This document shows positions 8,323 to 28,130 of a DNA stretch of 40,772 bases, piece by piece. A program made the translations under genes and the position numbers. Origin of the DNA: a virus; IMG/VR virus record IMGVR_UViG_3300031999_000074, positions 1 through 40,772 of that record, one strand, 5' to 3'. Within the stretch, counting starts at the first letter, position 1, and every line of letters begins with the position of its first letter. The notes below the pieces were generated by a model, which was not told the DNA's origin, did not search any database, and saw nothing but the letters and a program-made list of their open reading frames with translations.

Positions 8323-8324
8323 AC

Positions 8325-8582
8325 ATGAAGAAAAATAGAATGTCCTTACCGACCGTTGTGAATAAAATTCCCAAATCCACCTTCAGGATTGACGCAAGCA
8401 AACTGAAGGGAAATTCATTCCGGGTGGGAAAGAAGGTTAAGGTTTTGGTTCACGGCAAAATCACCGAGGAATCCCTGGATGACTACGAAGTTCCGGGGAA
8501 GAAGTCTTTCCGGTTGGAGGTTCACAAAGTGACTTCGGCTGGTGGACAGAGAGTAAGAAATCCGTTTAGGGGGAAGAGATAA
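8325..8582 (+). CDS. Small basic protein after the portal
   Basis: An 85-residue product, two bases after the portal stop. Beta-rich, with a central VGKKVKVLVHGKI strand pattern and a basic C-terminus (GGQRVRNPFRGKR). The next gene product has a similar PGQKVMVHGEI element, so the two may share a small beta-barrel fold. It is placed among virion genes but no family is recognised. Confidence 0.6.
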   Translation: MKKNRMSLPTVVNKIPKSTFRIDASKLKGNSFRVGKKVKVLVHGKITEESLDDYEVPGKKSFRLEVHKVTSAGGQRVRNPFRGKR

Positions 8583-8664
8583 TAGTTCGGGGTGGACATA
8601 CCATATCGGGACCGGAGCATACGGTCAAGTCGAATTCGTTTAAGTTGAGGGATAGAAGGAAAAG

Positions 8665-9000
8665 ATGATGGAAAAAAACGATGGTGGAATCATAGGGGCA
8701 ATTAGAAATCGAAGCGATAAATTTTATACCGCCAACAGTAAGTTAACCTTAGATAGATTTAATGAATTTATGAAAGTGGTTTTTGACAAATACCCCCTCT
8801 TTTACCCTGGACAAAAAGTGATGGTTCATGGTGAAATTAAAAAGATTATAAGGGGAGTGGGTTCAACTTTAACCGTTAGGAATTTGTATTTCTACGAAAG
8901 ATTCTATTCTTGGCTTTTCAAGGTATGCCATTTTAAGAAGATAAGATGTTGGTATCTGACTTTGATAGCCAAATTCGGGATGGGAGATTTTGCTAAATGA
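8665..9000 (+). CDS. Small hypothetical protein
   Basis: A 111-residue product with GAAGGAAAAG before ATG 8665. It has a helical N-terminus, a PGQKVMVHGEIKKI strand pair like that in the 8325 product, and an aromatic, basic C-terminus. Its stop overlaps the start at 8997. Function unknown. Confidence 0.55.
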   Translation: MMEKNDGGIIGAIRNRSDKFYTANSKLTLDRFNEFMKVVFDKYPLFYPGQKVMVHGEIKKIIRGVGSTLTVRNLYFYERFYSWLFKVCHFKKIRCWYLTLIAKFGMGDFAK

Positions 9001-9140
9001 CTCTTTCGCAGATCATAGCTAAAGATTCGTATTACGACCAGGATATTCCGGTCAAGGGGCATTTTAGAATTGAGATCGAAATTCATGATGGAACGATTAC
9101 ATTGGTAAGGAAAGAGGAGAAGATAAAAAAGGAACCGTGA
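8997..9140 (+). CDS. 47-residue protein
   Basis: ATG 8997 overlaps the previous stop (ATGA) and the frame runs 47 codons to TGA 9138-9140, overlapping the next start. The product has a strand-rich centre (KGHFRIEIEIHDGTITLV) and a charged tail (RKEEKIKKEP). The tight overlap on both sides supports translation. Confidence 0.5.
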   Translation: MTLSQIIAKDSYYDQDIPVKGHFRIEIEIHDGTITLVRKEEKIKKEP

Positions 9141-9367
9141 TGGAACGATGTAAGAATTGTAAATTTTGGGATGGGGAACCGGGAGATCACTTGGGAAGTT
9201 GTTTCTCTGATAAATTCGTACAAAATTATCCAGATGAGGTAGAAGTAAATAGAAACGATCTTTTTGATCGACTTTTCCATGATAACGATGAAAATATAAG
9301 TTGTGATTTATATACCGAGGAAAATTTTGGTTGTGTGCATTTTGAACTAAGGGAGGAGAAAATCTAA
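9140..9367 (+). CDS. Small zinc-binding-type protein
   Basis: A 75-residue product from ATG 9140 (TGATG overlap). The N-terminus ERCKNCKFWDG, a middle Cys (LGSCF), an ISC and a late FGCVHFE form the Cys pattern of small phage proteins with a C-x2-C-x-F-W start and a terminal GC..FE. It probably binds zinc; function unknown. It is the last gene before a strong terminator. Confidence 0.65.
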   Translation: MERCKNCKFWDGEPGDHLGSCFSDKFVQNYPDEVEVNRNDLFDRLFHDNDENISCDLYTEENFGCVHFELREEKI

Positions 9368-9442
9368 AATAGTGTAGTTTTTCGACATAGCTTTTTGTAA
9401 GGGTGAATGGAACAACCATAGCCCCGTTTGTCCCCACGGTAG

Positions 9443-9469
9443 CCCCGTTCGGGATGGACGGGGTTTTTT
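9443..9469 (+). terminator. Intrinsic terminator after the packaging genes
   Basis: CCCCGT (9443-9448) pairs with ACGGGG (9458-9463), followed by six T (9464-9469). It separates the terminase/portal block from the secreted-protein and capsid block. Confidence 0.85.
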
Positions 9470-9494
9470 ATTAACCTGAAACCAAGGAGTGAAT

Positions 9495-9524
9495 ATGAGA
9501 CAGAAAATCAGAAATCCCCTGTAG
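9495..9524 (+). CDS. Nine-codon leader ORF
   Basis: ATG 9495 follows AAGGAG at good spacing and encodes MRQKIRNPL before TAG. It lies between the terminator and the signal-peptide gene at 9560. It may be a leader peptide or a remnant; the evidence is only the ribosome-binding site. Confidence 0.3.
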   Translation: MRQKIRNPL

Positions 9525-9559
9525 AGAGAGTAGAAAACAATTTAACCGAGGAGAAGTAG

Positions 9560-10219
9560 ATGAAAAGAATTGTTGTATTAGCGGGACTGGTTTTGGTGAT
9601 GTTTCTGGCTGCCATTCCTGCATTCGCTGCCCACAACTATGGACAGTATCCGACCTACTGGCCATTAGTGACGTGTGATAGTGTCTATCACCGGCAGATA
9701 GTGAGCAGAACCTCCGCCAGCGGGTGGTTGATCCAAGAGACAAACTGGACGGTTAAGAGGGGATGGGGGGATTCAACCTTGTATAAAGACACCCTCCATG
9801 CTACGCTTTATACCCCCTGGTATAATATGGGAGAACCGAGCGGTTCGCCTACTCTATCGGCGTTTACCGCTTGTTTTGATATTGCCCAGGTAGACACATT
9901 CGGTGGGTATGATGCAGGCGATACTTATGGTGTATATATGCAAACCGCCATTGATTCGGCCACCTATCCCGCCTTATTTAACACGATAACCTTGAGATCG
10001 GCGCTCACTGATACCACTCAGGGTTTGATCAAAACTCAATGGCTGGGGGTATATGCCCAGGATTCGGTGTATACGAAATATGTTCGCCTGAAGGTTGTGG
10101 TTACAATCGTTGCCGACAGCGCCACAGCCGGACTTGAACATCCGGTATACAACGATGCGGCCGCAAAGCATATCCCGTTAAAAATCACGGAGTATTACAG
10201 ACCCTTCTGGACAAAGTGA
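9560..10219 (+). CDS. Exported protein within the head-gene block
   Basis: A 219-residue product with a textbook Sec signal peptide: MKR, a 16-residue hydrophobic core and PAFA before AHNYG (cleavage near residue 23). The mature part is rich in Tyr, Thr, Ser and Asp and predicted to be mostly beta. GAGGAG lies just upstream. It sits between portal/packaging genes and scaffold/capsid genes, where a decoration or head protein would be expected, so export is odd. It could act as an envelope protein during infection or as an externally assembled decoration; no family recognised. Confidence 0.75.
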   Translation: MKRIVVLAGLVLVMFLAAIPAFAAHNYGQYPTYWPLVTCDSVYHRQIVSRTSASGWLIQETNWTVKRGWGDSTLYKDTLHATLYTPWYNMGEPSGSPTLSAFTACFDIAQVDTFGGYDAGDTYGVYMQTAIDSATYPALFNTITLRSALTDTTQGLIKTQWLGVYAQDSVYTKYVRLKVVVTIVADSATAGLEHPVYNDAAAKHIPLKITEYYRPFWTK

Positions 10220-10227
10220 GGTAAGTT

Positions 10228-10398
10228 ATGCCGGAAGAATTGATCAAAAAACGTGGCGGTGCCATCAGGTATCGAACCAAGAAATTACCTGGTGGGAGGT
10301 ATGTTCACATCGCCATAACCAGGAATCCCGGACCAAGAGGCGGAAAGACCGTAGCTGGTCCGGTTCACCGTCTGAAATCGAGAATGGGTAGGAGTTAA
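10228..10398 (+). CDS. 56-residue basic protein
   Basis: ATG 10228 opens 56 codons ending TAA 10396-10398, whose last A is the first base of the next ATG. The product is highly basic and Gly-rich (KKRGGAIRYRTKKLPGGRYVHI, then NPGPRGGKT). Its place just before scaffold and capsid genes suggests a small head or DNA-associated protein; no family recognised. Confidence 0.6.
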   Translation: MPEELIKKRGGAIRYRTKKLPGGRYVHIAITRNPGPRGGKTVAGPVHRLKSRMGRS

Positions 10399-10775
10399 TG
10401 CTATCATCCTTCGCTCAAATCAACAAAGTCTTAAAAGGCCTTCTTTCCAGAAAAGAAAAAATGCAAATCTACGTGGCTTCGCTTACGGAGCAAGTGGAGG
10501 GTGGGGATATGGTGGAGCAACTCTTTAAATCCCCAGTATGGGAGAAGATAATATCTCCCTGGTTGGGGGATGAGGAGAAGAGAGCAGACAGACGGTTGAG
10601 AGACTTTAATCACGAAATTCCACAAGACATAGTGGGGTTTGGTGAATTGGGTAAAATCAAAGAGATTGAGAAATTTAGAATGATGCTCGAAAAGCACCTT
10701 AAACAAAGGGATGCGGCTAAGGAGAAACTCCGAAAGTTGCAACCCGACGGAGATAAAAATGACTGGAGAAAATAA
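10398..10775 (+). CDS. Helical protein before the scaffold
   Basis: A 125-residue product with ATG overlapping the previous stop and GGAG upstream. Almost entirely helical and charged, with a C-terminal coiled-coil-like stretch (FRMMLEKHLKQRDAAKEKLRKL). The next gene starts within its last codons. Position suggests a capsid-assembly helper, but this is not shown by a motif. Confidence 0.6.
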   Translation: MLSSFAQINKVLKGLLSRKEKMQIYVASLTEQVEGGDMVEQLFKSPVWEKIISPWLGDEEKRADRRLRDFNHEIPQDIVGFGELGKIKEIEKFRMMLEKHLKQRDAAKEKLRKLQPDGDKNDWRK

Positions 10776-11568
10776 AGACCCTCTCGAAAACGAGGATCTG
10801 AATAAAACAGAAGAGGAACTGGAACCGGAACGTCAACAGGAGCTGACAAAACTAAGGGTTGACAACCCGGATCTGACTGACGAAGAACTTGATGCTCTTC
10901 TGGCTGAAGATGAGGCGAACAGACTGGAAGAGTTGGGTTTCCCTCAATTCAAAACATTCAAGGAAATGGCGGAGAACTTTAAGAAGTTCCTCGATGAAGA
11001 TAAGATGACATTTCCGATTGTCAAAGAGTTAGCCGCGGAACTTAACTACAAGACACCACATGACTTCATTCAGGCGGTAAAGGCACAGATCAAAAAATCC
11101 TCTCCTCCCAAGGCGGACGGCCTTCCTAAAGGGAAAGATCCCTACGATGACAGGTTTAGGCAGTTGGAGGCAGACCGAGGGGATATTCACTGGGATTTGG
11201 CTTTTGATAAGTTTCAACGCAAAATGGAGAAGGGGGAGGATGGAGTGGAGATTCCCAATAAGCTGAAGGGGACCCTCAAAAAGCTAATTCCTGCCGTGTT
11301 GGCGGATAAGACCAGGCAGGAATTAGAGGATATGGATCCCGAGGAAGTTTTTGAGGATGCCTACGACCTCTATCTCTGGAAACTCTCCAAAGAGAAAAGT
11401 CCGGAAAAACTCAAGAGCGATCTGAGTGAGTTGGAACTCAAGCGGCTGAAAAAACTTAGACAATTGAAGATGCCATCAGGAAAAACCACAACCAAGGGTG
11501 GGAATGCTCAAGATATTAAGGATTTTGGGGCGGGCATTACCTCCCTGCCACCTGTAAAAGGAAAATAA
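10759..11568 (+). CDS. Capsid scaffolding protein (probable)
   Basis: A 269-residue product from ATG 10759, preferred over ATG 10711 because GGAG precedes it and the overlap is smaller. Very acidic and helical at the N-terminus (LEPERQQELTKLRVDNP...LTDEELDALL), with a Lys-rich C-terminal helical region. Lying directly before the major capsid gene, this composition is typical of scaffolding proteins, which guide prohead assembly and then leave the shell. Confidence 0.75.
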   Translation: MTGENKDPLENEDLNKTEEELEPERQQELTKLRVDNPDLTDEELDALLAEDEANRLEELGFPQFKTFKEMAENFKKFLDEDKMTFPIVKELAAELNYKTPHDFIQAVKAQIKKSSPPKADGLPKGKDPYDDRFRQLEADRGDIHWDLAFDKFQRKMEKGEDGVEIPNKLKGTLKKLIPAVLADKTRQELEDMDPEEVFEDAYDLYLWKLSKEKSPEKLKSDLSELELKRLKKLRQLKMPSGKTTTKGGNAQDIKDFGAGITSLPPVKGK

Positions 11569-11571
11569 ACT

Positions 11572-12804
11572 ATGCCACCTACTTACGCTGAAGGATTGCT
11601 TTCGGGAATAATCACAGGTAGTATGCTCCCGGACGGCTTGATAATGAAGGAAATACATCCCAAAATCAAATATTTTGCAGATGCCGTGGATGTCGGCAAG
11701 AGTTTCTTTGCTCTCCAGGGCAAAGACATAACCAAGAAACCGACCATCTCCCCCAAGGTTTTCTGTTACGAGAAAGAGACCAAAGGTGAGTGGATGCAGT
11801 TGAACATGGCCGGAGGAGCAGTTCTGGGAGACACAACCATAACGGTGGATGCGGTTGGACCGTTACGGCCCAACGACATCATCCAGATATGGGAATCGGA
11901 TTTGAGTGCTTTCGAGCAAATCCGGGTTTTGACCGTTCCATCTTCGACCACATTCACCTGTACCAGAAATTACGGGACTTCCCATAGCGGAACCTGGGCG
12001 GATGATACCAAGATCAAAATCCTGTTCAATGCTGGAGCGGAAACCGGCTCCCTCCCCACCATCTCGAACCGGATTCCGAGTGACGAGTGGAACTGTGTCA
12101 CCCTGATCCGGACCGCAATAGGCGGTGGATTGTTCTTCACGAACCAGAAGACCTACACCGGAGATCCCTGGACAGACCAGTTGATCGAAAAGTGGATTGA
12201 TCACCTGAACGAGAAGATCAATAAGGCCCTCTTTGGAGCCAGGAAATGGGATTCCACGAACGGTATCCCGATTGGTGAGGGTATCATCCCGGCCGTCATC
12301 CGGAGAGGCGGGGTATTGAAGCCCGATCTCGGGGTTGTGACCTGGGATAGCTTCATGGGGGTTGTGAGACAGGCTTTCAAGGTGGGATCGTCCACTAAGA
12401 TCATGCTTGCCTGCCCCATGATGACCTATGCTCTGGCGAGTTGGAAAAAGAACAACCCTATGGTGATTATGCAAGAGGATACCTATCTGGACATACAGGT
12501 TGACAGCCTCAAACTGCCCGGTGGGAAGACCTTGAAGATCATAGAAGAAAACAAACTGTCCGGCGATCCGGATGACAGTCCGGATAACCTTTTCGGCGGA
12601 AGTTTCGTTATCGTTGATCCAAGGAACATCACCTATATGCCCTACTTGACCACCAAGGGCGTGTTGGATGATAAGCTTCTGAAAGACCGGCAGGCAAACG
12701 ATTCACTCTCCAGGGAAGAGGAATACATCTCTTGCGCTGCGTGGCGATGGGATGTGATCACTTCCCACTGTTTTGCCTCCGGGATCACCGGATTTAACAA
12801 CTAA
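11572..12804 (+). CDS. Major capsid protein
   Basis: A 410-residue product three bases after the scaffold gene. Length, position and composition fit the HK97-fold shell protein. It resembles the SU10-like (DUF5309) group, with an N-terminal arm, a central beta insertion (VDAVGPLRPNDIIQIWES) and C-terminal VIVDPRNITYMPYL then ISCAAWRWDV. The GC-richer, regular codon choice around the gene suits high expression. Confidence 0.8.
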   Translation: MPPTYAEGLLSGIITGSMLPDGLIMKEIHPKIKYFADAVDVGKSFFALQGKDITKKPTISPKVFCYEKETKGEWMQLNMAGGAVLGDTTITVDAVGPLRPNDIIQIWESDLSAFEQIRVLTVPSSTTFTCTRNYGTSHSGTWADDTKIKILFNAGAETGSLPTISNRIPSDEWNCVTLIRTAIGGGLFFTNQKTYTGDPWTDQLIEKWIDHLNEKINKALFGARKWDSTNGIPIGEGIIPAVIRRGGVLKPDLGVVTWDSFMGVVRQAFKVGSSTKIMLACPMMTYALASWKKNNPMVIMQEDTYLDIQVDSLKLPGGKTLKIIEENKLSGDPDDSPDNLFGGSFVIVDPRNITYMPYLTTKGVLDDKLLKDRQANDSLSREEEYISCAAWRWDVITSHCFASGITGFNN

Positions 12805-13358: not shown

Positions 13359-14066
13359 ATGAATATAACTAAGTACATCCAAGAAAATATCCTGGGTGAT
13401 TCTTCTGCAGTCGTTACCCGGAAATTGGATGAACATCTTGAAGTCGTTTCAAGGGATGTTTACGATTACCACAACTGGAGATGGCTTAAGAGATCGGAAG
13501 AACTAACCCTTACAACCAATATTATTGAGTATGAATTATCAGGGAATGGCAATGATCTATCCAAAATGATTTCAATGTTCTACGGTGATGATATGCGCCG
13601 GTTGAATGACGACTGCCAAGATGAGGAAGCTTTCTATAAACTCAAATATGGTCAGATGGAGGGCGAAACCCCGAATCTTTGGGTAGCCAAAGAGAAAATT
13701 AACGAATACACCTGGAAGTTCATTATCTATCCCTGTTCGGCCATAACTCTTGAAACCGTCACTTACTATTATAAAAAGACATTTAACATTGCCGACATTC
13801 CTCTTTATCCTAATCCTATGGTTTTTATCGACGGGATTATGGAGAAATTCTTAACAGGGGTGGCGGTCAATACAAAAGATCCCGTTCAGGCGAGTAAAAT
13901 GATACAGTTGGCCCGGGACTACAAGGCAAGTTACCTGGCGGGTAGGGAACTGATGAAACAAAACGATTCGGCGGTGACTAAGCCTAAAACTAAGATTGAC
14001 GTTTCGGACGAACAAAAGGCTTTTCAGTATAGAGTAAAAAGATTGCAGAGGATGGGGAGAATATGA
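13359..14066 (+). CDS. Head-tail adaptor protein (gp4/tail-tube-A like)
   Basis: A 235-residue product without a signal peptide. The start (a VVTRKLDEHLEVVSRDVYDYHNWRW-type helix pair, followed by strands LTTNIIEYEL) and the later YYYKKTF with a helical C-terminus fit adaptor proteins that bind the portal ring in short-tailed phages. It is the first of four consecutive genes coding for similar-length proteins; the next three have signal peptides, this one does not. The stop overlaps the next start. Confidence 0.6.
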   Translation: MNITKYIQENILGDSSAVVTRKLDEHLEVVSRDVYDYHNWRWLKRSEELTLTTNIIEYELSGNGNDLSKMISMFYGDDMRRLNDDCQDEEAFYKLKYGQMEGETPNLWVAKEKINEYTWKFIIYPCSAITLETVTYYYKKTFNIADIPLYPNPMVFIDGIMEKFLTGVAVNTKDPVQASKMIQLARDYKASYLAGRELMKQNDSAVTKPKTKIDVSDEQKAFQYRVKRLQRMGRI

Positions 14067-14764
14067 AAAAGACACTTACACTATCCTTTTTGATCCCCCT
14101 GCTGATCTTTTGGTTCTTTCTGGAAAAATCCTTAGCCGGGGAGTTTTACACTCTGGCAGACCTGAAGGTGGGAGCCAAAGATAATACCTACATGACCACC
14201 GAGCCGACCTATGCCGACTCGGTCTGGAATCGGTGGGTGAATGAGGGATCCCTGATCATCTCCCGTTGGGAAGTGATTGAGAAACTCGACACGATTATCT
14301 GGACGGCAAATAACCAACTCTATACCCCTAACAACGATTTCCTTAACTTGAAAGCGGTGGGATTTTTAAGACCATCCGGGAAAACTCCCCCAACGGTGGT
14401 AGTAAACGATCAAGTTTACCTTCAGAAGTACTCCGATGAGTTGACTCCCCGCTACGCCTATTCGGTGGGATCGGATGGAAGCGCCCGGGTGGGGTTCTAT
14501 CCCCCGCCTTACCGTGCAGACACCACCATTATTATCTACTGGGCATCCGCCAAGTTGTTAAGTACGGACGCGGACACAAGCAATATTCCACTAACTTTAA
14601 GACCGGCAATTGTGAGCTATGTTAGTTACAAAGCTCTTTTACGATATGCTAAGAATTTAGCTTTTCCCTATAGAAACGAATTTGACGATTACCACAGCCA
14701 AGTTCTTAGAGAAAAGGGCTTGGATCAGATAAAGAAACAAGAAAAAACGGAGAGTGAGAAATGA
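14063..14764 (+). CDS. Adaptor-like protein with Sec signal peptide
   Basis: A 233-residue product. N-terminus MKK, hydrophobic core LSFLIPLLIFWFFL and a KSLA cleavage site before GEFYTL. The mature part has the adaptor layout: helix (YADSVWNRWVNEG), beta segment ending YPPPYRADTTIIIYW and a C-terminal helical region with SYKALLRYAKN. It overlaps its neighbours by ATGA. A cleavable signal on a head-tail adaptor is very unusual; it may instead be a membrane anchor used in assembly. Confidence 0.65.
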   Translation: MKKTLTLSFLIPLLIFWFFLEKSLAGEFYTLADLKVGAKDNTYMTTEPTYADSVWNRWVNEGSLIISRWEVIEKLDTIIWTANNQLYTPNNDFLNLKAVGFLRPSGKTPPTVVVNDQVYLQKYSDELTPRYAYSVGSDGSARVGFYPPPYRADTTIIIYWASAKLLSTDADTSNIPLTLRPAIVSYVSYKALLRYAKNLAFPYRNEFDDYHSQVLREKGLDQIKKQEKTESEK

Positions 14765-15459
14765 AAAAGATTCTATTGTTTGCCTTAATTTCGCTGTTTC
14801 TGATACAGGGGATATGTTGGGGGGTCGGCTTTGACACTCAACTTTACAATGAAATATATACCATTAAACCTGAATTAAAGGATTTAATTACAACGGACAA
14901 TCTTGACCAGTTAATAGCAATGGCAAAAAGGGCGGTTTGTACTCATGGACTATTATATTCCGGTGAAGCAGCAACGGCAACGGTTTCGGCAGACAGTAAC
15001 TATGCTTATGTTCGGATTGGATGGTTTCCCATTAAGGATGTCGTTTTTATTACCTCCGTATCAAGATTAAGATCGAGTGCTTTAGATTATGCTACTGAAT
15101 TGGGTTTAATAGAAATAGATATAAGCGAAATCGGACATCGTTCACTTACCGCCTATCCCACTTCGGGATATTGGGCACAATTCAAGAGCGGGGAGACCAC
15201 TTTTATATATCTCTATCCCGCACCTGATACTACTACCCAACTTTATATTGAGTACATCTATGGATATGGGAGTACGCCCCCTTACAGTACCGTGCAATTA
15301 ATCGCCCGGTATGCCACTTTTTTGGCTTGTTTATCTATCGACGATTACGATTGCGCCACCCTAAATTACAATGAATATAGACAGACAATTTCATATATAA
15401 GAGATCAGAAGTTGAACCGTCAACCGGATATATCCTCCGAAAGAAAAATCTTAAAATAG
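14761..15459 (+). CDS. Adaptor-like paralogue with Sec signal peptide
   Basis: A 232-residue product with GGAGAG before ATG 14761. Signal peptide MKKILLFALISLFLIQGICWG before VGFDTQ. The mature part repeats the neighbouring layout: helix, strands, a YLYPAPDTTTQLYIEYIYG segment and a C-terminal helix pair (LIARYATFLACLSIDDYD). It is similar in length to 14063 and 15468 but divergent in sequence. Possible roles: successive rings of the neck, or exported subunits. Confidence 0.6.
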   Translation: MKKILLFALISLFLIQGICWGVGFDTQLYNEIYTIKPELKDLITTDNLDQLIAMAKRAVCTHGLLYSGEAATATVSADSNYAYVRIGWFPIKDVVFITSVSRLRSSALDYATELGLIEIDISEIGHRSLTAYPTSGYWAQFKSGETTFIYLYPAPDTTTQLYIEYIYGYGSTPPYSTVQLIARYATFLACLSIDDYDCATLNYNEYRQTISYIRDQKLNRQPDISSERKILK

Positions 15460-15467
15460 GAGTGAAA

Positions 15468-16181
15468 ATGAAAAGATTCATACTCTGTTTACTTGCCTTG
15501 TTGTTACTCTGTCCAATCGCAAAGGCAGTCAGTTTCGGGGAGATGCAGACCTATTTGGATGCGATGTTGCAATCGGCGAACGAGGTTTATCTACCCGATT
15601 CTGTAAAGAATCAAATGCTGGGGATGGGGATGAGATATATAGCGGGGTTGTCTCCCTATGCAGCTGAGGTAAAATTTGCGGCTTATGTTACACCAACCGG
15701 GAATTACACCTCCATAGCCTTGCCATCAACTAAATGGTGGGAGGGATGGAATAGGGTAAATGCCATTAAACTTAGAAACGAGGATTTCTCCTTGTATGAG
15801 ATTCAACACCGGGATATTGGACAGAGGGGAATAGTTGCTACCGGGGTTGGAAAACCCCGCTATTGGTATCATGGAACAGACGCAGCCCGGAATGAAAATC
15901 TTGGTGTTTATCCTCCCTATACATCCGATACTACTCATCTAACGATGTTTGTTTCCGTTATTCCCGCCATGCAAACCTACGGTGATACCCTTCTTTTCAA
16001 CAATATCTATGAGATTGAGGTTGTTCTTTATGCCTTTGCGCTTTCCCGATTACGAGAGGGTGATCTGACAGTGGGGAATTTCATAATGTCCATCGTGAAT
16101 CAGGAGATTATGGATTTGACCACGATGTTAGAAAACCGTCCGAAGGATATAATGATTCAACCGAAGGTTTTGAGCAGATGA
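15468..16181 (+). CDS. Third adaptor-like protein with Sec signal peptide
   Basis: A 237-residue product from ATG 15468, with TAGGAG eight bases before it; the GTG two codons earlier is less likely. Signal MKRFILCLLALLLLCPIAKA before VSFGEM. The mature protein contains YPPYTSDTTHLTMFV and a C-terminal helical part, matching the pattern of the two preceding genes. Its last bases overlap the start of 16178. Confidence 0.6.
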   Translation: MKRFILCLLALLLLCPIAKAVSFGEMQTYLDAMLQSANEVYLPDSVKNQMLGMGMRYIAGLSPYAAEVKFAAYVTPTGNYTSIALPSTKWWEGWNRVNAIKLRNEDFSLYEIQHRDIGQRGIVATGVGKPRYWYHGTDAARNENLGVYPPYTSDTTHLTMFVSVIPAMQTYGDTLLFNNIYEIEVVLYAFALSRLREGDLTVGNFIMSIVNQEIMDLTTMLENRPKDIMIQPKVLSR

Positions 16182-16453
16182 AGAAAATTTTGATCTGGTT
16201 TCATATTTGCAAAGAAAAGAAATCGGAACCACTTCCGAAAGATAAGTGGATCGGTGCTTCTATTTATGAATATCCCCAGGGAGAATATGATGAATATGGT
16301 CGAGAAAGAGTTCTCCTGAGGATAGGTAGCGATACTATGTATACTGGATGGAAAGAGAAGATTGAAGAGGAAGAGATTTACATACCTAAAGATAATGTAT
16401 CGCTTTTGATGAATAAAAAAAATGGGTTTTTTGTACTTGGAGATTATAAATAA
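16178..16453 (+). CDS. Small hypothetical protein in the neck block
   Basis: A 91-residue product, overlapping the previous stop by ATGA. It has a basic N-terminus and a strand-rich body (GASIYEYPQGEYDEYG, RVLLRIGSDTMYTGW). No signal peptide and no recognised domain. Tight linkage to the adaptor and nozzle genes suggests a minor tail or chaperone role. Confidence 0.5.
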   Translation: MKKILIWFHICKEKKSEPLPKDKWIGASIYEYPQGEYDEYGRERVLLRIGSDTMYTGWKEKIEEEEIYIPKDNVSLLMNKKNGFFVLGDYK

Positions 16454-16455
16454 AC

Positions 16456-18909
16456 ATGAAGAAGATAAAGTCTTTCATTTTATTCATTCTATTAGTATTT
16501 CTTTTCCTCTTTCGTTTTTATCAATACAATTTGATTCCGCTTAATGCCCAGGAGAAGACCACTAATCCCGACATCGAGGAATACCCACCTTTCGTTAAGC
16601 CTCTAACCGTTCCTAATCCCCAACCGGTGACTCCGCCCGTGACTACCCCAGCGCAGTGGTGGGAAATGAAAATGATGAAGCCGACTCCGGTAACGCCACC
16701 AAAAACGACACAGCCGATCTACATCCCACAGACCTTTAATAAGCCGACTCCGGTAACGCCACCGAATGTAACACCGCCAAGTGGGAATCAGGGATACATC
16801 AATTTCAGCAAGCCAAGTCCAGTCTCTCCGCCACAGACTACGGAGCCACAGTATTTTCCTTATAAGTTTCAGACACCGCAACCAGTTACTGCACCCCAGG
16901 GTAAGTATCAGATCGAGGAGTGGAACGACTTCACGGGTGGATTGATTGTTACTCCTTATCCTACTAAACTTAAAAACAACGAAGCATTAGTTCTTGAAAA
17001 CGCTCTTTGGAATCGAAGGGGTGAAATATATAAGCGCCCCGGTTATTCCCGGCACAGTGCTACGCCTACGAGTTTCAATTTCTTGCAAAGCTATGAGAAG
17101 GCGAACGGGACATCATATACGATGGGGGGTAGTGACACCGCACTCTATTATTACACCTCGGCGGATTCTACGTGGAATAAGATTGCGAGTTCTTACGGAG
17201 TGCCAGGAGCGTGGGATGGCGTAACTTTTAATGATAAATTCGTGGCAACACACAAGGGAATTCTTCCGGTGGTTTGGGATGGATCGTCGATAATTGAATT
17301 CCCTGTTTCTTATAAAGGGTTTTGCTTGTCAAGAAAAGATGAGTGCCCCTCTGTACCGAATAGGTTGACTATGTGGCTTACAATTCCATCAGGATACCTG
17401 ACAGAACCCGGTGAATGGATTGGATATACACTTAGAATAAAGATTTCGACTCAATACTTTTGGTACTATATTTTTAATTCCGAATTAGGAACATCAGAAG
17501 ATACTATTTATTTTCCAAGTTATCTGACTTCGTCTTATATTCCCGATCCTTTTGTCGATTCTATTGCAATTTTCCCCTGGTTAGCTTTGAGTGAAGCTAT
17601 TGATTCTGGAGTTATTGATACAAGCGCACTTCTTGTTCCTGGGCCAGATGATTGTAGTGGAGTATTGAGAATTAAAGCGAGAGATGGAGTATTTGATGGA
17701 ACATGGGATGGATGTCTCATAGAGTCGGACTTATACAAGTCTATTATAGGTGGTAGTAGGTATATTGAATATTGTTATCCTGCGTCATTTTATTATTACT
17801 GTTCTGTGTATCCGGGTGACAATGTTAATTATCCCTTCGTAGCCGGAAGTAAATACCGAATTAAGCGGACGGGTTTTTGGAAGCCGGAATTTGTTGAGGT
17901 TTTTGGGGGGAGACTTTGGTTTGGGGCTGCTTCTTATGGTGATAATCCAATAGATAATTTGAGTGTAATTTGGAGCAGTCTTCACAACCTGAATTCCTTT
18001 CCGGTAGAGAACAATTTTTACTTTGAAGGTGGGGGGGGTGGAATTACCGGCATGATCTCCATGGCGGGTAAATATGTGGACATACCCAGGCATGAATTGT
18101 TGATTTCGAAACTTTCAAGCCTCTATAAAGTTTTTCCAAGTGCCGGAGGTTATGATTTTACCACAATAGCGAATGACATCGGTTGCTATTCAAATCATGG
18201 GATGTCTGTTAGTGAGGGGAGGATAGTTATTCTCCCCGATCAGAACGGAATATGGGGTTATGACGGTGTGGATAAACCAAAGAATATCTCGGCAGGAAAG
18301 ATCCAAAGAGAGATCGATTCACTGATAGATAATTCTTCAAGATGGAGAACCAATGGATTCTATAATTCCAAAGACAGGCATTATTATTTTTCTTATTATA
18401 GTAATTCGGCATTTAGAACCCTGGCTTGGAATATAGACTATGGAGGATGGTCCCGGGAGACGGTGATAAATCCTTCTGCTATGTGTTTTCGTCGGTCTTT
18501 ATCTACTACGGGCGATATTCTATTTGCCAATTATAGATCAGGGTGGAATTACGGGGTTTATTACTATGGAGTACAGGCGAGAGACGGAGGGACAACCTCG
18601 GCAAGCGATGTTATTTTTAAGTATCAGAGCGGATATAGGCTCCTCTCCGATGATCCCTTCGGTTATAGCCGGATAAAAAGAAGCGGATTAGAAGTTAAAT
18701 CCGATTCAGCTTATGCAGTATGGGTATACGATCAGAACGGAACAAAGTTATTTTCCGATACCTTAGCCAGCACGGGATGGGATATACAACAAATTGGTGT
18801 TTCATCGTCAAGTTATGCGAAATCCTATAGTATCTACGTGAGTAGTTTAACATCAACTTATTTTTTACTTTCCCGCCTCTGGTGGGAATACTTACCCTTT
18901 GGAAAATAA
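16456..18909 (+). CDS. Tail nozzle/stopper protein with signal peptide and proline-rich linker
   Basis: An 817-residue product. N-terminal hydrophobic segment (about residues 6-22) and a possible cleavage at LNA before QEK. Residues about 35-150 are a proline-rich linker with several KPTPVTPP-like units; 23 bp of DNA repeat exactly at 16678-16700 and 16741-16763. From about residue 155, DFTGGLIVTPYPTKLKNNEA, then LENALWN..GEIYKRPGY, is the classic start of beta-propeller nozzle proteins of short-tailed phages (T7 gp12/P22 gp10-like). The nozzle closes the tail channel. The signal plus linker are not typical of the family. Confidence 0.7.
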   Translation: MKKIKSFILFILLVFLFLFRFYQYNLIPLNAQEKTTNPDIEEYPPFVKPLTVPNPQPVTPPVTTPAQWWEMKMMKPTPVTPPKTTQPIYIPQTFNKPTPVTPPNVTPPSGNQGYINFSKPSPVSPPQTTEPQYFPYKFQTPQPVTAPQGKYQIEEWNDFTGGLIVTPYPTKLKNNEALVLENALWNRRGEIYKRPGYSRHSATPTSFNFLQSYEKANGTSYTMGGSDTALYYYTSADSTWNKIASSYGVPGAWDGVTFNDKFVATHKGILPVVWDGSSIIEFPVSYKGFCLSRKDECPSVPNRLTMWLTIPSGYLTEPGEWIGYTLRIKISTQYFWYYIFNSELGTSEDTIYFPSYLTSSYIPDPFVDSIAIFPWLALSEAIDSGVIDTSALLVPGPDDCSGVLRIKARDGVFDGTWDGCLIESDLYKSIIGGSRYIEYCYPASFYYYCSVYPGDNVNYPFVAGSKYRIKRTGFWKPEFVEVFGGRLWFGAASYGDNPIDNLSVIWSSLHNLNSFPVENNFYFEGGGGGITGMISMAGKYVDIPRHELLISKLSSLYKVFPSAGGYDFTTIANDIGCYSNHGMSVSEGRIVILPDQNGIWGYDGVDKPKNISAGKIQREIDSLIDNSSRWRTNGFYNSKDRHYYFSYYSNSAFRTLAWNIDYGGWSRETVINPSAMCFRRSLSTTGDILFANYRSGWNYGVYYYGVQARDGGTTSASDVIFKYQSGYRLLSDDPFGYSRIKRSGLEVKSDSAYAVWVYDQNGTKLFSDTLASTGWDIQQIGVSSSSYAKSYSIYVSSLTSTYFLLSRLWWEYLPFGK

Positions 18910-18918
18910 GGAGGAGTC

Positions 18919-19449
18919 ATGCCTATTGGACCTTGGATTGTACCTGCAATAAGCGCGGGGGCGTCACTTTTAGAAAATCTCTTCGGTGGTGGGAAACAGA
19001 AATCGGGATACCAGATGTCCCCCTATGAGAAGATGATGCTTCAAGAAATGATGAATGAATATCAAAATACGAATGTTCCGGGGTCTGTGACGGCGCCTTA
19101 TTATCAATTAGCTGGGGATATTAAACAGAAATATGCCGAACAACCGGGATCTTCCGGACTTGAGATTGCCAACTTACAGAAATTCGCCTATGCGCCTATG
19201 TCGGAAGTCTCGACAAACTACTTGGAGAATAAAAAGCAGAGGTTGGCCGCTTTGATAGCCAGCATAACCAGGGGAACTGGGACATCTTGGGCACAGGGAG
19301 CACCGGACTTTTCGGGTGTGGGAGAGGATATCGGGTCGATAATTTGGGAGATTTTGAACCGGCAAAAAGCGGGTGGTGGTGGTGGTGGAGCTCAATACAG
19401 TCCAGAACTAAAATTTGGTTATACTCCACCAAATCCATATCATTTTTAG
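18919..19449 (+). CDS. Small internal (ejection) virion protein
   Basis: A 176-residue product with AAGGAGG upstream. The N-terminus PIGPWIVPAISAGASLLENLFGGG is the small-residue hydrophobic segment seen in phage ejection proteins that insert into the envelope. The middle is helical (MSPYEKMMLQEMMNEYQ), and the C-terminus has a six-glycine run. It is the first of three genes (18919, 19459, 20319) likely injected with the DNA. Confidence 0.6.
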   Translation: MPIGPWIVPAISAGASLLENLFGGGKQKSGYQMSPYEKMMLQEMMNEYQNTNVPGSVTAPYYQLAGDIKQKYAEQPGSSGLEIANLQKFAYAPMSEVSTNYLENKKQRLAALIASITRGTGTSWAQGAPDFSGVGEDIGSIIWEILNRQKAGGGGGGAQYSPELKFGYTPPNPYHF

Positions 19450-19458
19450 GAGGGCAAT

Positions 19459-20319
19459 ATGCCCGGATCAATTTATAGAGGTTATTTGCAGAGACAGGCA
19501 TTATACGATCAGGAACAGGAACAGATTGCGGAGAGGAAGCGGAAGAAGTTAGAGGAGTCCCTGGCCAATCTGAACATGGAAGCCTTAACCAGGAAGATAA
19601 AGAAGGACGCCCAAGATTGGGAACAGGAACAAAAAGATAGACAGAGACTTGAGGGTGCGTTGTCCAATTTAAAATTGATGGAATCGGAAGGAAAAATTCC
19701 GGTTGGCACTTTGGATGCAGCGATAGCGGAATTAACACTGCCAACAACCAAAAAAGAGGCAACACCCTGGTGGATGGGAACACCAATGGAAAAAAGCTAT
19801 ATAAACAAAGAGACCTACATTGCCCCAACTGGAGGGGAAGGTGGATTGAAGTTTGCCCCGATTCCGGCTGGTGTTAGTTATAGTATTGATCCGACTACCG
19901 GAAAACCTATTTTTACACCAAAGACGGAGAAATTGGGAGTTGGTGATATAACCAAAGCTATGAGTGGACTTTTAAAGCCATCACTGAGATTTGAAATGAG
20001 GGGAACACCAGAAAGTCGAATAGATAGTTTGATGGCAGGATTTCCCATTGCTCCACAGACAGCCACTGAAAGAGCATATCAGGTGGGACAAAACAGATTG
20101 ATTGAAGCGTTAGGTGAATTTACTCCAGGTGGTAGAATAAGTGAAGGGTTGTCTAAAGAAACGGGGGAAGTCCCCGAAGAATACGAGTCTGTTTTATCTG
20201 CTTATGGAGATTACGATGAATTTGTCTCCGATGCTACTCGACAACTAAATGAAGGGTCGATTAGCCAAGAAGCTTTTGATAATGCAGTCGCCAACGCAAA
20301 AATCTATTGGAAAAAGTAA
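19459..20319 (+). CDS. Coiled-coil internal virion protein
   Basis: A 286-residue product with AGGAGGGC before the start. Residues 1-80 form a long charged coiled coil (EQEQIAERKRKKLEESL...); the remainder is Gly/Pro/Thr-rich with a helical C-terminus. Position between a small and a very large ejection-type protein suggests a second ejection protein. Its stop TAA overlaps the next ATG. Confidence 0.6.
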   Translation: MPGSIYRGYLQRQALYDQEQEQIAERKRKKLEESLANLNMEALTRKIKKDAQDWEQEQKDRQRLEGALSNLKLMESEGKIPVGTLDAAIAELTLPTTKKEATPWWMGTPMEKSYINKETYIAPTGGEGGLKFAPIPAGVSYSIDPTTGKPIFTPKTEKLGVGDITKAMSGLLKPSLRFEMRGTPESRIDSLMAGFPIAPQTATERAYQVGQNRLIEALGEFTPGGRISEGLSKETGEVPEEYESVLSAYGDYDEFVSDATRQLNEGSISQEAFDNAVANAKIYWKK

Positions 20320-23300
20320 TGCCGAATTTGGGTGTGTTTGAGCCAAAGAAGAAAAGTAATCTCAGCGTTTTTGAACCTACTAAGCCCGCCAGTATGGGCG
20401 ATGGTTTACTTAATAAGGGTCTTGGTTTCGCCAAAGAGATGGGAGCTTCTGCCCTTGAAGAAGTTAGCAAAGGAACACCCCTTCCAGCCCTTCTACCGAT
20501 GTTATTCGCTAAAGCAGGGGAGAAGATTGCCCCTCCCGCTATTGGCAGGGAATTAGCCTCTGCACGTGGTTTTATGACCTTTCCGAGGGATATAGTTGAA
20601 TCAGTAGCTGAACCTTTGATAGCGGGGAAACCTAAAGAGGCGGGACAAGCAGTTTTGGGCATGGGTAAGGATATTGGAACGGGTGTATTAGACTGGATTA
20701 TGCTCGGTGCTGGATCTCCGGTTGAGAAACAGATGGCAATGGAGCATATCGGCGGAAGAGTGAAGGAAAGAGGTTTTGTCGCTGAATCAGTCTATCCCAT
20801 GACTCTTTTAGCTCCGGTACTTAAAGGTATAGGTATGGGGAAAAAGGCGGGGGTAAAAACAGAGATGATCGCGGAGAGACTTGAAGATATAAGGAATTTA
20901 CCAACAGAGCAGAGATTAGAGACTATTCGGCGAACAGAACTCCCCTCCGTTAGACCTACCGGGTTTGAGGCAGACTTAAACCGAATCAGGGAAAAGATCA
21001 AAGCCGAGATCGCCACCGAACCCTTGACTTCTGAAAAAGTGGGTGAGACTTTTGTTCTTGAACCGACTGCTGAAGAATTAAAAGCCATGTCTCCTATAAG
21101 AAAAAAGATTATGCTTGAAGCTTCTACAATGCGAAGAAAGGCTAAGGCAATAGAGAAACAACGAGCATTAGCAGAAAAGCAGAGAATGGCTACTCAGGGT
21201 GAAGGCTTTACGATGTTGCCGGAGAGGAAGTTGCTTGAAGCCCCCAAGCCCCTTGAGGAAACTTTGGGGTTGAAAGCACCCCCTGAACCGCCCGCAGTTG
21301 GTGAAACTGTGAAAGCAAATGTCCCCGGAGAAAAAACTGTAATCAAATATAGCAAAGATTTAGTAAAAACAGGTGAACGTAAATTAAAAGACTTTCACCA
21401 AGTTGATTTGCTTGTTTATGCAGATAGAGCAAAGAGAGCGGGTGATCTTGAAACAGCACAGATATTTAAACAATATGATACCTTCCTCAGAGAAAAGCAT
21501 AAACCTGTTCAGGTTGATATAAGTGAAAGAATATCTGCCGCAAAGGAAATGGCAACAGAGATAAGACAAAACGGAGGCTCTCTAAAGGTAAACCCCGATG
21601 GTTCTGTAACTATTTATCATGGAACTTCAAAAGTCAACGCAGAGGCAATTCGACAAAGTGGTAAATTAGACGAGATGACATTTTTCTCACACAGTAAATC
21701 TCGTTCCATGTTCGGTAGTGAAGGGGCAAAAGATTATGCAAAAATGGCTGGGCGTGGTAAGGGCGAGATTATGGAATTTAAAGTTGATCCAAGAGATATT
21801 GATTTTAATTCTGGGAGTGGAGAAATTGAAGCACCAAAGCCCCTCGTTAGAGGTGATGATGGTATTTGGAGGGCAAAAAATAGAAAGATAAAACCTATTC
21901 CCCCCAAGTCCCCCGTCCTCGGCGAAGGCATGAATAAGATGGTGCAAGAGTTGAAGGATAAGGATGTGACCGAAACCCCCCCGACGGGCGCGGACTATCC
22001 CGATCTGGCGAAGGCACAAGAGACGGGGGGGATAAAGAAAGAAGTTATTACACCTACAGAGGAACTTAGCGGGGGTTTTGGTGTTGTTTCTCCTTTCAAA
22101 TCCAAGAATGTGCAATTAGGAAATGCGCTCAGGGAAGCGATGTTGAGAAAGAAGATAAAACAGGAAGCCGATATGCCCGCTCCCCGGATAACGATGGACA
22201 TAAAGCCAGAGGATGCCCGAACATTCCTGCATCGTCCCTCTTACAAATATGACGTGGTACCGGATGAATACGGAGAAGTCAAAATCCGGTATGGAGAAAC
22301 AGCAGGGCAAGCACAAAGATTACTCATGCTCACCGAACGGAATATCAGGGTAGATCAGGGAAGGGGTGCGGCGGAAATCGGGGGGATATTAAAGCAATCC
22401 TCGAAATCTCTACGGACAAAATATAACAATGAGATTGTGGATGGACTTGAAAATCCGATTGAGGTAACGGAAGCCAAGAATATACCGGAACCCGTTAAGC
22501 AAGTTGTCAGAGGATTGAAAGCCGTATCGGACAGACAGAGACAGGAGATTATCACTACTAAGCGTGAAGACATTCGACCGTATTTCACCCGTCTTTCCGA
22601 ACAACTATATCGGCAGGAAAACGGCTTAAAAGGGAAGCGTTTGACTCCCGATCAACGGGTAGAAATTGCAAATAGAACCGAGACGATGATTAAAGGGGAG
22701 ATTCCCGACTCCTGGGGGATTAAGGATTATTTTAGACATCTTCATCTGGGGGACTATGCTCTATTGAAGGATGGGGAATATATCGGATCGGCACAGAATT
22801 GGAGTGAGGCATTACAGAAGATAGTAGACAATTATGTAGAAAATCCTACCACGAAAAACTACGACATCAAATTGCGGGAATTTATCAATCCCGATGTGGT
22901 GAGGGTATCGAGAAAACGGCAGTATAAAATCTTGAATGATCTGCGGAAAGAATTAAATGAGGAATCACCGGATAGGATCAGGGAGGTTCTTAGCGGAAAG
23001 ATCGGGGCAAGGGAAGCACAGCGGAAATGGGCGGGATTTTTACAGGAGAGAAAAGGCGCACCAGGTTATTCCAAGGATTTGGAATTTGTTTTGAATTACC
23101 ACAACAATCAATATCACCGTTGGAAGAATCTATATAGACTTCAGAGTCAAATTCAGCCACTGATTACAAAATTAACACGGGAAGGGCGTCCGCTTATAGC
23201 CGAGGAGATAAAAACCAATCTGAAAGCTATCTGGGGACAGAAAACTCCCACATCGGCAGGTCTGGATTCTTATTTAAATAAAATCTTTAGGGGAAAGATC

Positions 23301-24692
23301 AGACCTTTTGCCCTTGAAAGATGGGCGGGAAGAATAAGAAATGTATTGTCTACAGGGATGCTCAAGACCAGTTTGAGATATAATCTTCTCAATAGTCTAC
23401 AAACCTTGCAAACCGGAATGGTGGTGCCTTACCGGGAATTGGCATGGGCACAGAAAGCGGTTAGAACGGTGGAAGGAAAGGCATTGTTAGATCGGCATGG
23501 AGTTTATTATCTGACTGGAAGAACTGCGGGAGAATTAACCAGACAGTATACCTCTCCACAATTCAGGTCTGGCAAACTGATGCGGATTTTGAGACTTTCC
23601 CCGGAGACTTCAAACCAGGTGGAAATGTGGTTAGCGGTTTACAAACATGGAATTGATAATCTCGGCATGACTGATGCGCAGGCGGGTGATTATGCTTTCT
23701 TGAGAGGAATGGTTTATTCTCAATTCTATCCCCTAAAGACCAATATTCCACGAGCATTGAGACCGGAACTGGTGAGAATAGGCCCGGGTATGTTTAGGCA
23801 ATTCACCATCGGCTCCGTTGAACTGGGAGCGGATTTAGCCAAGCAGGCATTTGGAGGAAAGGGGCAATATACTTTCCGTCAACGTCTCGGCAGTGGGGGA
23901 AGGTTAGCACATTTCGTCGCGGCACAATTAGCTCTTGGTGGTGCAAGGATTCTAACCGGACCAGCCGGGAAGATAGGAACAGGTTACTTGACTTTTAATC
24001 TCTATAACAAAATCAAGGATAAATACGGAGAGACTATAGCCAAGGTAATCAACTATGGTTTACCTGCTTTGATTAACAGTGACTGGTCATCTTCTATTCA
24101 GATGTTCGACTTGCCTTATTCTGACAATGTTCCCGAAGCGATTGGACAGGTAGTATTGGGACCCGTAGGAAGCATTGGAACCAGGATAGTAACCGAAGCC
24201 AAAAGAGAATATCCCACCCGATTAAAGAGAATCTTGGGAGTTACAAAAGCTTTAGGGGAGAGTTTTGGGGGAACACGTCAACTTATCGGACTGGAGAAGG
24301 TTTTGACCGGGGATTATGATTTCCGTAGTCCAAGTGGTAAACTCAAATTTCAGGGAGAGTTGAAAGATGCATTGGTACAATTATACGGTTCTCGTCCTGT
24401 AACCGCATCAATCGAGCAGATGAAGATGGATGCTTTGACCGAAGTATTTTCCCAAAGGAATGAAACGATTAACAGAGCTAAAGAAATTATTCTCCAACCA
24501 AACGGAGATTATGATGCTCTTACCCAAATTATAGAAAAGTATAATTCCGAATGGCCGGAGTTGGCTATCGGATTTGATGAAGTCAAGAAAAGAACCATTA
24601 GTTCTATGAGGCAAGAAGACTTGAGTGCTTTTGAAAGAATGCTAAAACAAAAAGGAAAGCGATTTCAAAATATGTTTCAGGCGGGCAAATAA
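20319..24692 (+). CDS. Giant ejection protein with ADP-ribosyltransferase-like segment
   Basis: A 1457-residue product; ATG 20319 overlaps the previous stop. The N-terminus is low complexity, then helical. Around residues 430-500 GSVTIYHGTSKVNAEAIRQSG, then FFSHSKSRSMFGSEGAKDYA and GEIMEFKVDPRDID, resemble the H-x-T...S/Y...E layout of ADP-ribosyltransferase folds. The C-terminal half is helical and basic with Gly/Ala-rich membrane-active-looking stretches (FVAAQLALGGARILTGPAG), as in large phage ejection or polyvalent proteins. Likely injected with the genome; enzyme activity is inferred from the motif only. Confidence 0.65.
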   Translation: MPNLGVFEPKKKSNLSVFEPTKPASMGDGLLNKGLGFAKEMGASALEEVSKGTPLPALLPMLFAKAGEKIAPPAIGRELASARGFMTFPRDIVESVAEPLIAGKPKEAGQAVLGMGKDIGTGVLDWIMLGAGSPVEKQMAMEHIGGRVKERGFVAESVYPMTLLAPVLKGIGMGKKAGVKTEMIAERLEDIRNLPTEQRLETIRRTELPSVRPTGFEADLNRIREKIKAEIATEPLTSEKVGETFVLEPTAEELKAMSPIRKKIMLEASTMRRKAKAIEKQRALAEKQRMATQGEGFTMLPERKLLEAPKPLEETLGLKAPPEPPAVGETVKANVPGEKTVIKYSKDLVKTGERKLKDFHQVDLLVYADRAKRAGDLETAQIFKQYDTFLREKHKPVQVDISERISAAKEMATEIRQNGGSLKVNPDGSVTIYHGTSKVNAEAIRQSGKLDEMTFFSHSKSRSMFGSEGAKDYAKMAGRGKGEIMEFKVDPRDIDFNSGSGEIEAPKPLVRGDDGIWRAKNRKIKPIPPKSPVLGEGMNKMVQELKDKDVTETPPTGADYPDLAKAQETGGIKKEVITPTEELSGGFGVVSPFKSKNVQLGNALREAMLRKKIKQEADMPAPRITMDIKPEDARTFLHRPSYKYDVVPDEYGEVKIRYGETAGQAQRLLMLTERNIRVDQGRGAAEIGGILKQSSKSLRTKYNNEIVDGLENPIEVTEAKNIPEPVKQVVRGLKAVSDRQRQEIITTKREDIRPYFTRLSEQLYRQENGLKGKRLTPDQRVEIANRTETMIKGEIPDSWGIKDYFRHLHLGDYALLKDGEYIGSAQNWSEALQKIVDNYVENPTTKNYDIKLREFINPDVVRVSRKRQYKILNDLRKELNEESPDRIREVLSGKIGAREAQRKWAGFLQERKGAPGYSKDLEFVLNYHNNQYHRWKNLYRLQSQIQPLITKLTREGRPLIAEEIKTNLKAIWGQKTPTSAGLDSYLNKIFRGKIRPFALERWAGRIRNVLSTGMLKTSLRYNLLNSLQTLQTGMVVPYRELAWAQKAVRTVEGKALLDRHGVYYLTGRTAGELTRQYTSPQFRSGKLMRILRLSPETSNQVEMWLAVYKHGIDNLGMTDAQAGDYAFLRGMVYSQFYPLKTNIPRALRPELVRIGPGMFRQFTIGSVELGADLAKQAFGGKGQYTFRQRLGSGGRLAHFVAAQLALGGARILTGPAGKIGTGYLTFNLYNKIKDKYGETIAKVINYGLPALINSDWSSSIQMFDLPYSDNVPEAIGQVVLGPVGSIGTRIVTEAKREYPTRLKRILGVTKALGESFGGTRQLIGLEKVLTGDYDFRSPSGKLKFQGELKDALVQLYGSRPVTASIEQMKMDALTEVFSQRNETINRAKEIILQPNGDYDALTQIIEKYNSEWPELAIGFDEVKKRTISSMRQEDLSAFERMLKQKGKRFQNMFQAGK

Positions 24693-27050: not shown

Positions 27051-27481
27051 ATAGGCGAAACTTTCTCTCCTCAATCTGCCTGTCTTGTTTGGCTCTGGTC
27101 ATGCCTAAGCTTAATCTGCCGGTGATAGGTAAAGTGCGAAACTGCCTGGATTGCCGGAAGTCTACGATGTGTTGCGAGGTTTTGCAGGGGGAATTTGCCA
27201 TATCCATCTCTGTCTGGGAAAAAGATATTTTGATTAAGCAGGGAGAACTGAAAGGGGTTAAAGTTGGACGGTTTGAGGATTTTGCCCCGGGGGTTCTGGC
27301 ATGGCGAACCGGAACGAAACAGTGCCCGTTTCTTAAAAATAAAAGATGTTTGATATACGATAAACGCCCGGGTGTTTGTCGGAAATACTATTGCGATGAC
27401 TGGGGTTGGACGAAAGCGGAGCAGGACTCAATCAATCGAGCCGTAGACGGGGAATGGAATGAGAAAACTTGTAATAAGTAG
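27047..27481 (+). CDS. Tat-signal CxxCxxxxCC-cluster (YkgJ/UPF0153-type) protein
   Basis: A 144-residue product from ATG 27047, preceded by GGAGAGG. It begins MNRRNFLSS, a twin-arginine motif, then a hydrophobic stretch (ICLSCLALVMP). The mature part has NCLDCRKSTMCCEV, CPFLKNKRCLIYDKRPGVCRKYYC, matching the metal/iron-sulfur-binding YkgJ-like family. A Tat signal fits export of a folded cofactor protein. Such a protein in a phage between endolysin and fibre genes is unexpected; its role is unknown. Confidence 0.65.
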   Translation: MNRRNFLSSICLSCLALVMPKLNLPVIGKVRNCLDCRKSTMCCEVLQGEFAISISVWEKDILIKQGELKGVKVGRFEDFAPGVLAWRTGTKQCPFLKNKRCLIYDKRPGVCRKYYCDDWGWTKAEQDSINRAVDGEWNEKTCNK

Positions 27482-28130
27482 TATTCTTTTGCTCTTGATG
27501 TTTAGCGTGGGATGGAGTAATAGTGTAACCGTCCGTCCGACAAAATCAAGAGGAGAGGCGGGATGGCTTTGCACGATTGGGACACCTTGTTCGACCTGTG
27601 TGAACGATCAGAATAATGCGACAAGTGTGTATGCCGCTGCGGGAAGTAAAAGCGGTTTTGCCTTTCCCGACTTTACTACTCAACAATATTTTGACAGCTT
27701 ACAATTATTCGTGCGAGCCAATACGCTGGCAACGGGTTCGTTAGCTTTTGGCTGGGGATGTTTTGATAGCGAATTCAGTAAAAACCATTGGGCTGTCTGT
27801 AACTGGACTGATTCGACGTATGGAAGTTGCAATTACGATACTGGCAGGTGCAGTGGTGCGGATACGATAACCTTAACTACGACAATTACGGATTACTACG
27901 TTATTACCCTATTATATGATCCCCATACTATTGATGGGTGGGATACGACCTATTATAATAATTCGACTTACGGGAGTTGGCATCAGAGTATTTTAAATCT
28001 GTTCAGCGTATCGGTTTCGACAAAAGGGACAAATTATGTTTATGAGATTTGGGGAAATCTATACTGGACGCCAGGGGCGGTCTTGCCCCGTATGCGACAG
28101 AATATAATTGACGGAGGGATAATTCGATAA
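27459..28130 (+). CDS. Exported fibre-region protein
   Basis: A 223-residue product overlapping the previous gene by 23 bases, with GGGGAATGG before the ATG. Signal peptide MRKLVISSILLLLMFSVGWS before NSVTV. The mature part is rich in Cys early on (LCTIGTPCSTC), then Tyr, Thr, Asn and Trp, and predicted beta. Its stop overlaps the start of the large fibre-like gene. Possibly a fibre partner or exported adhesin; no family recognised. Confidence 0.6.
   Translation: MRKLVISSILLLLMFSVGWSNSVTVRPTKSRGEAGWLCTIGTPCSTCVNDQNNATSVYAAAGSKSGFAFPDFTTQQYFDSLQLFVRANTLATGSLAFGWGCFDSEFSKNHWAVCNWTDSTYGSCNYDTGRCSGADTITLTTTITDYYVITLLYDPHTIDGWDTTYYNNSTYGSWHQSILNLFSVSVSTKGTNYVYEIWGNLYWTPGAVLPRMRQNIIDGGIIR

Follow-up and report, generated by a model that had tools for sequence, protein, structure and literature searches.

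Filamentous (Ff) phages make their coat proteins, which are virion proteins, with signal peptides, and are assembled and extruded at the membrane with no HK97 head or tail. For tailed phages, the cytoplasm is, to our knowledge, regarded as the site of all virion assembly. Here we describe a putative head-tail module at positions 13359–18909 of IMG/VR virus record IMGVR_UViG_3300031999_000074 (the window, i.e., the whole stretch of 40,772 bases, in which terminal repeats are absent), where three adaptor proteins and a nozzle-like protein carry predicted N-terminal signal peptides. Among tailed phages, the module resembles that of Escherichia phage SU10 (Kuravirus; PMC9509320) in its adaptor family (PF24175), its possibly SU10-like capsid, and its gene set of terminase, portal, scaffold, capsid, adaptor, nozzle, and ejection proteins. 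In contrast, the SU10 adaptor gp11 and nozzle gp17 begin directly with the folded domain and have no signal peptide, SU10 has one adaptor gene where this phage has up to four, and the SU10 nozzle has no proline-rich arm. Tail proteins without signals, a trait of the SU10 type, are not what is seen here when set against control phages, and because the tail proteins carry signals, unlike those of the controls, the module is a variant of the SU10-type tail module. Phage T4 also exports a protein directed at a tail component: Spackle (gp61.3) is secreted, has its signal cleaved, and inhibits a tail lysozyme in the periplasm (PMC7650644); Spackle, however, is a periplasmic inhibitor rather than a tail structural protein. 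The best explanation of the locus, to which we give an even chance, includes positions 13359–18909 being the head-tail module of a podovirus-like phage of SU10 type, known from metagenome sequence alone.

N termini taken from a program-made list of open reading frames, with starts called mechanically, were scored with a fixed tripartite heuristic requiring an n-region of net positive charge, 8–20 uncharged hydrophobic residues in a row, and a cleavage site with small residues. Four products, those of 14063, 14761, 15462/15468, and 16456, passed, displaying the n-, h-, and c-regions and small residues at −3/−1 of signals of the Sec/signal peptidase I (SPase I) type, while the product at 13359 failed. 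These results bear out an earlier sequence-only reading, which had placed signal-like N termini correctly on the four products, with a proline-rich linker after that of 16456, and had seen none on the first adaptor. The predicted signal peptide of adaptor 2 (14063..14137; 25 residues, MKKTLTLSFLIPLLIFWFFLEKSLA) would be cleaved between SLA and GEF, that of adaptor 3 (14761..14829; ∼21–23 residues, MKKILLFALISLFLIQGICWG(VG)) before F, that of adaptor 4 (15468..15527; 20 residues, MKRFILCLLALLLLCPIAKA) between AKA and VSF, and that of the nozzle-like protein (16456..16548; ∼31 residues, MKKIKSFILFILLVFLFLFRFYQYNLIPLNA) between NA and QEK, all on the + strand. For adaptor 4, ATG 15468 was preferred over the mechanical start, GTG 15462, because AGGAG lies a few nucleotides upstream of 15468. 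By the same heuristic, 3/161 late or structural-module genes from eight control phages were flagged, all three from lysis cassettes and none structural (N4 spanin, N4 signal-arrest-release [SAR] endolysin, and a lysis-cassette gene of SU10); among control adaptors and nozzles the count was 0 of ∼16 (Fisher p ∼1e-6). Several textbook E. coli signals, included as positive controls, fell at or under the cut-off of this strict heuristic, so the flags are not due to a loose rule. At sequence level, we take the predicted signals on 14063, 14761, 15468, and 16456 as real. None of the terminase, portal, scaffold, capsid, adaptor 1, and ejection-type genes was flagged, and this predicted partition, with signals on the tail side and none on head, portal-proximal, and ejection-type proteins, is the key fact of the analysis. 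Composition of the mature parts was rejected as evidence of export, since ordinary adaptors and nozzles, those of SU10 included, have a similar composition.

The mature parts resemble proteins of adaptor and nozzle type, as the earlier reading had held, at differing levels of similarity. Adaptor 2 (14063..14764, +) matches SU10_adaptor (PF24175; Pfam 9.5e-11, and 5.3e-14 for its orthologue in the related contig described below). The domain starts directly behind the leader, at residue 30 in adaptor 2 and residue 28 in the orthologue; in the adaptors of SU10, VA-RY-3, Ss1, Rollin, and Mel-JY34, which are without signal, it starts at residues 1–24. Adaptor 3 (14761..15459, +) is SU10_adaptor-like, near the threshold (Pfam 1.7e-5, 25.8 bits vs. 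a curated cut-off of 27). Adaptor 4 (15468..16181, +), with no Pfam match of its own, is a paralogue of adaptor 3 by full-length hhalign alignment (E 1.2e-11, a score to which the shared leader may add) and aligns partially with the profile of adaptor 2. A scan of the mature adaptors found no membrane-grade segment. The product at 13359 (13359..14066, +), portal-proximal by gene order, is a putative adaptor, assigned from position and size only, with no Pfam match and no profile match to the other adaptors.

The product of 16456 (817 residues) is, judging by weak but converging sequence matches, most likely the nozzle. Its leader is followed by a proline-rich repeat linker of ∼120 residues (16549..16905, +), with units like PTPVTPPxTTxP, and by a nozzle-like body (16906..18909, +). 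The region near residue 159 gave short, weak local alignments to nozzle residues 6–46 of two Manatee Spring podoviruses, MW202637 (L040) and MW202477 (L041), and because the canonical podovirus nozzle N terminus aligns at this residue, ∼150 residues of leader and proline-rich repeats precede an otherwise ordinary nozzle. A profile of the protein and its orthologue in the relative ranked SU10 gp17 first among control nozzles, weakly, and phrog_511 was matched by the orthologue and the L040 and L041 nozzles (1e-3 to 1e-4). A protein search with the nozzle body returned spurious matches only. The linker is also present in the relative, where it is longer; repeat units of ∼20–28 residues were observed in both proteins. 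These repeats could form an arm binding the adaptor stack.

The whole block of adaptors 1-2-3-4 and nozzle is present in an independent, related contig, IMGVR_UViG_3300024433_000074 (L009/L011; portal 66 % and capsid 72 % identical). The check for the same signals in a related genome, which the sequence-only reading had suggested, found all four: leaders are kept in 4/4 orthologues (adaptors 2–4 at L009:13139, L009:13849, and L009:14566, and the nozzle in L011), with SVA, SQA, AIA, and VWA at −3/−1. The L011 nozzle leader, MKCIKVFLMGLIFFVLGFGVWA, would be cleaved before QDI. Identity between the two genomes is 38, 31, 33, and 27 % for adaptors 2, 3, 4, and the nozzle, and the leader sequences have diverged with their design kept, as selection for export would give. 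Adaptor 1 is without a signal in both phages (orthologue L009:12431-13135, 56 % identical). L009/L011 was the one true relative returned by single-protein and motif scans of IMG/VR; the terminase relatives L002–L008 share the terminase only. The large terminase of the relative (L009:3894-5477, Terminase_3) is of a type unrelated to the GpA-type gene at 4586–6373 of the window, a clear module swap.

Taken from these predictions, export of the tail-side proteins is strongly suggested. For the full route, comprising Sec export of the tail side, SPase I trimming, periplasmic assembly, and joining to cytoplasmic heads at lysis, we consider the case evenly balanced. Adaptors 2–4, the nozzle, and probably the fibre-like products of 27459 and 28130 would be made as preproteins that the host Sec system carries over the inner membrane and signal peptidase I trims, while the cytoplasm would keep the portal, adaptor 1, scaffold, capsid, and ejection proteins. 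Folding and assembly of the tail parts would take place in the periplasm, and once lysis begins and the holin has opened the inner membrane, DNA-filled heads bearing portal and adaptor 1 would meet the tails to give complete virions. The sequences show the signals, the family of two adaptors, conservation in a relative, and the partition between head and tail; that the signals are cleaved, that tails assemble in the periplasm and join heads at lysis, and that the proteins belong to the virion are points that we infer. A wider proposal is held tentatively, at a little under an even chance: a two-compartment particle, with head, portal, and adaptor 1 cytoplasmic and the remaining tail-tube parts, the nozzle, and the fibres periplasmic after Sec export, the halves joining as lysis breaches the inner membrane, and with partial versions more widespread, as hinted by signal-bearing fibre proteins of other podoviruses.

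Several points weigh against the proposed route as a whole. The full feature is seen in two genomes only, and virion membership of the signal-bearing proteins is based on homology and synteny. Composition fails to separate these four proteins from ordinary adaptors and nozzles, and AlphaFold runs on two-sequence alignments of adaptor and nozzle gave no usable model (pLDDT 31–35). Signals also occur on 9560 and 25376, neither of which is an obvious tail protein. The time in which tails must find heads at lysis would be short. Finally, the periplasm itself is assumed, since scans covering ∼85,000 prokaryotic genomes turned up no related prophage that would point to a host.

The sequence-only reading had offered two options, export of part of the tail or membrane anchoring of tail parts by the hydrophobic segments. 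Export fits better and anchoring less well, because the four L009/L011 orthologues have cleavable-looking −3/−1 motifs, the mature adaptors have no second membrane segment, and the partition reaches the fibre-like genes. Uncleaved signal anchors are the main rival, in which the N termini would hold tail parts at the inner membrane (the nozzle via a TonB-like proline-rich arm) for assembly or DNA entry. Such anchoring, which we judge unlikely, is most attractive for the 16456 nozzle with its long arm, where the core is very hydrophobic, the cleavage site distant and weak, and the proline-rich arm next in line; envelope-spanning proteins, e.g., TonB, typically have such an arm behind their membrane anchor. 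However, short h-regions and good −3/−1 motifs are found in the four orthologues and in adaptor 4 of the window, the nozzle of the relative has a clean cleavage site, and positive-inside topology would still place the domains of anchored proteins across the membrane from the heads.

Exported proteins need not be virion parts, and these could be tail homologues acting wholly or mainly to block superinfection or remodel the envelope. Roles of this sort are common for exported phage proteins, as for T4 Spackle gp61.3 (PMC7650644), and 25376 resembles such an accessory gene. In contrast, the four proteins discussed here are the sole adaptor and nozzle candidates of the genome, stand in the standard gene order, and are kept as a block in L009/L011, making this explanation distinctly unlikely; superinfection exclusion is possible for 25376 and unlikely for the adaptor and nozzle candidates. 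Tail-associated proteins of podoviruses cross the envelope during infection, which is in keeping with a further alternative where the leaders are propeptides used inside the particle, e.g., removed by another protease at maturation or inserted into the target membrane at DNA ejection, with no Sec step. We regard this as very unlikely, as n-region charge, h-region length, and a small-residue c-region fit the Sec pattern in all orthologues, and control podovirus adaptors have nothing similar. Mechanical calling of start codons leaves room for an artefact of wrong starts or chance hydrophobic N termini. Ribosome-binding-like context at most starts, retention of 4/4 leaders in a diverged relative, and the low background rate all argue otherwise. 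Moreover, the next in-frame start after the signal falls within the domain both in adaptor 2 (codon 36) and in adaptor 3 (codon 54), so a leaderless form of either would be truncated, and no alternative start keeps either one complete. An artefact is thus extremely improbable and largely refuted.

A partial parallel to exported tail parts comes from the Manatee Spring podoviruses L040 and L041, which share with this phage the order capsid-adaptor-nozzle-large ejection protein. Unlike here, their adaptor and nozzle are without signal, while signal peptides are likewise predicted on neighbouring tail-fibre-like proteins (L040:25580-26113 and L041:36156-36752, the latter a phrog_3484 tail fibre, 6.6e-6). 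A tail protein at L040:33494-34963 (phrog_5939, 1e-22) carries a lipobox. The starts of these three products and of L041:27467-28684 each show a signal peptide, lipobox, or hydrophobic stretch; homologous tail domains of RcapMu and S-WAM2 have no such N-terminal starts. By their predicted signals, the fibre-like proteins of L040 and L041 are an independent partial case of signal-bearing tail parts.

Within the window, signals extend beyond the four genes listed in the earlier reading, which understated them: the heuristic also flagged 9560, 25376, 27459, and 28130. The gene at 9560..10219 (+) lies between portal and scaffold genes, and its product weakly matches a signal-bearing protein at the same position in the relative (L009:8394-9026; 26 %, E 0.003). 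A poorly conserved signal-bearing protein directly behind the portal was also observed at L004:11394-11981, in a siphovirus-like contig sharing only the terminase. The product of 27459..28130 (+) is Cys-rich and possibly a tail or fibre part, and that of 28130..30598 (+) is a fibre-like protein of 822 residues with ∼26-residue repeats and a CarboxypepD_reg-like domain. The small protein encoded at 25376–25855 is strand-rich by eye and possibly an outer-membrane or superinfection-exclusion protein. At 27008–27481, a CxxCxxCC (PF03692) protein begins with MNRRNFLSSICLSCLALVMP, which is twin-arginine-like and may be a signal of Tat type.

The remainder of the contig, which carries a GpA-type terminase at 4586 and a tyrosine integrase at ∼31.1 kb, is that of a tailed phage, probably temperate. 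The head side (6370..12804, +) comprises portal 6370, scaffold 10711, and major capsid 11572, all three without signals by the heuristic; the capsid is SU10_MCP-like (PF17236, E 0.0013, under the cut-off; 0.035 for the L009 capsid). Ejection-type proteins 18919, 19459, and 20307 (18919..24692, +), also without signals, are assigned their putative function from position. The product of 20307–24692 has 1461 residues, zero cysteines, and no Pfam match, and a stretch of it resembles, by eye, an ADP-ribosyltransferase-like fold. A small open reading frame between adaptor 4 and the nozzle (16178..16453, +) has no counterpart in L009, in which adaptor 4 is directly followed by the nozzle. Two further genes are compatible with holin-endolysin lysis: 26143 encodes a small membrane protein with two helices, and 26468 is a peptidase-M15-like open reading frame without a signal, its motif recognised by eye and without a Pfam match.

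Direct protein searches with the portal and adaptors gave no match among annotated phages, and the capsid gave two weak matches only (E 0.08 and 0.4). The portal was not found in plasmids, and profile searches of solved structures returned nothing. In the open-access literature (subscription journals lying outside the scope), no description of a tail-tube or nozzle protein with a signal peptide was found, in agreement with the sequence-only reading, which knew of no phage tail of this kind; papers that do mention signal peptides, that on phiCbK among them, deal with lysis, superinfection, or other proteins rather than with tail structure. As far as found, the feature is undescribed for tailed phages. 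If the proposed export is true, the virions of these phages would be assembled by another pathway and finished only at lysis, and their tails could draw on folding and disulfide bonding in the periplasm. How common such export is could be gauged by a simple screen of structural genes for signal peptides.

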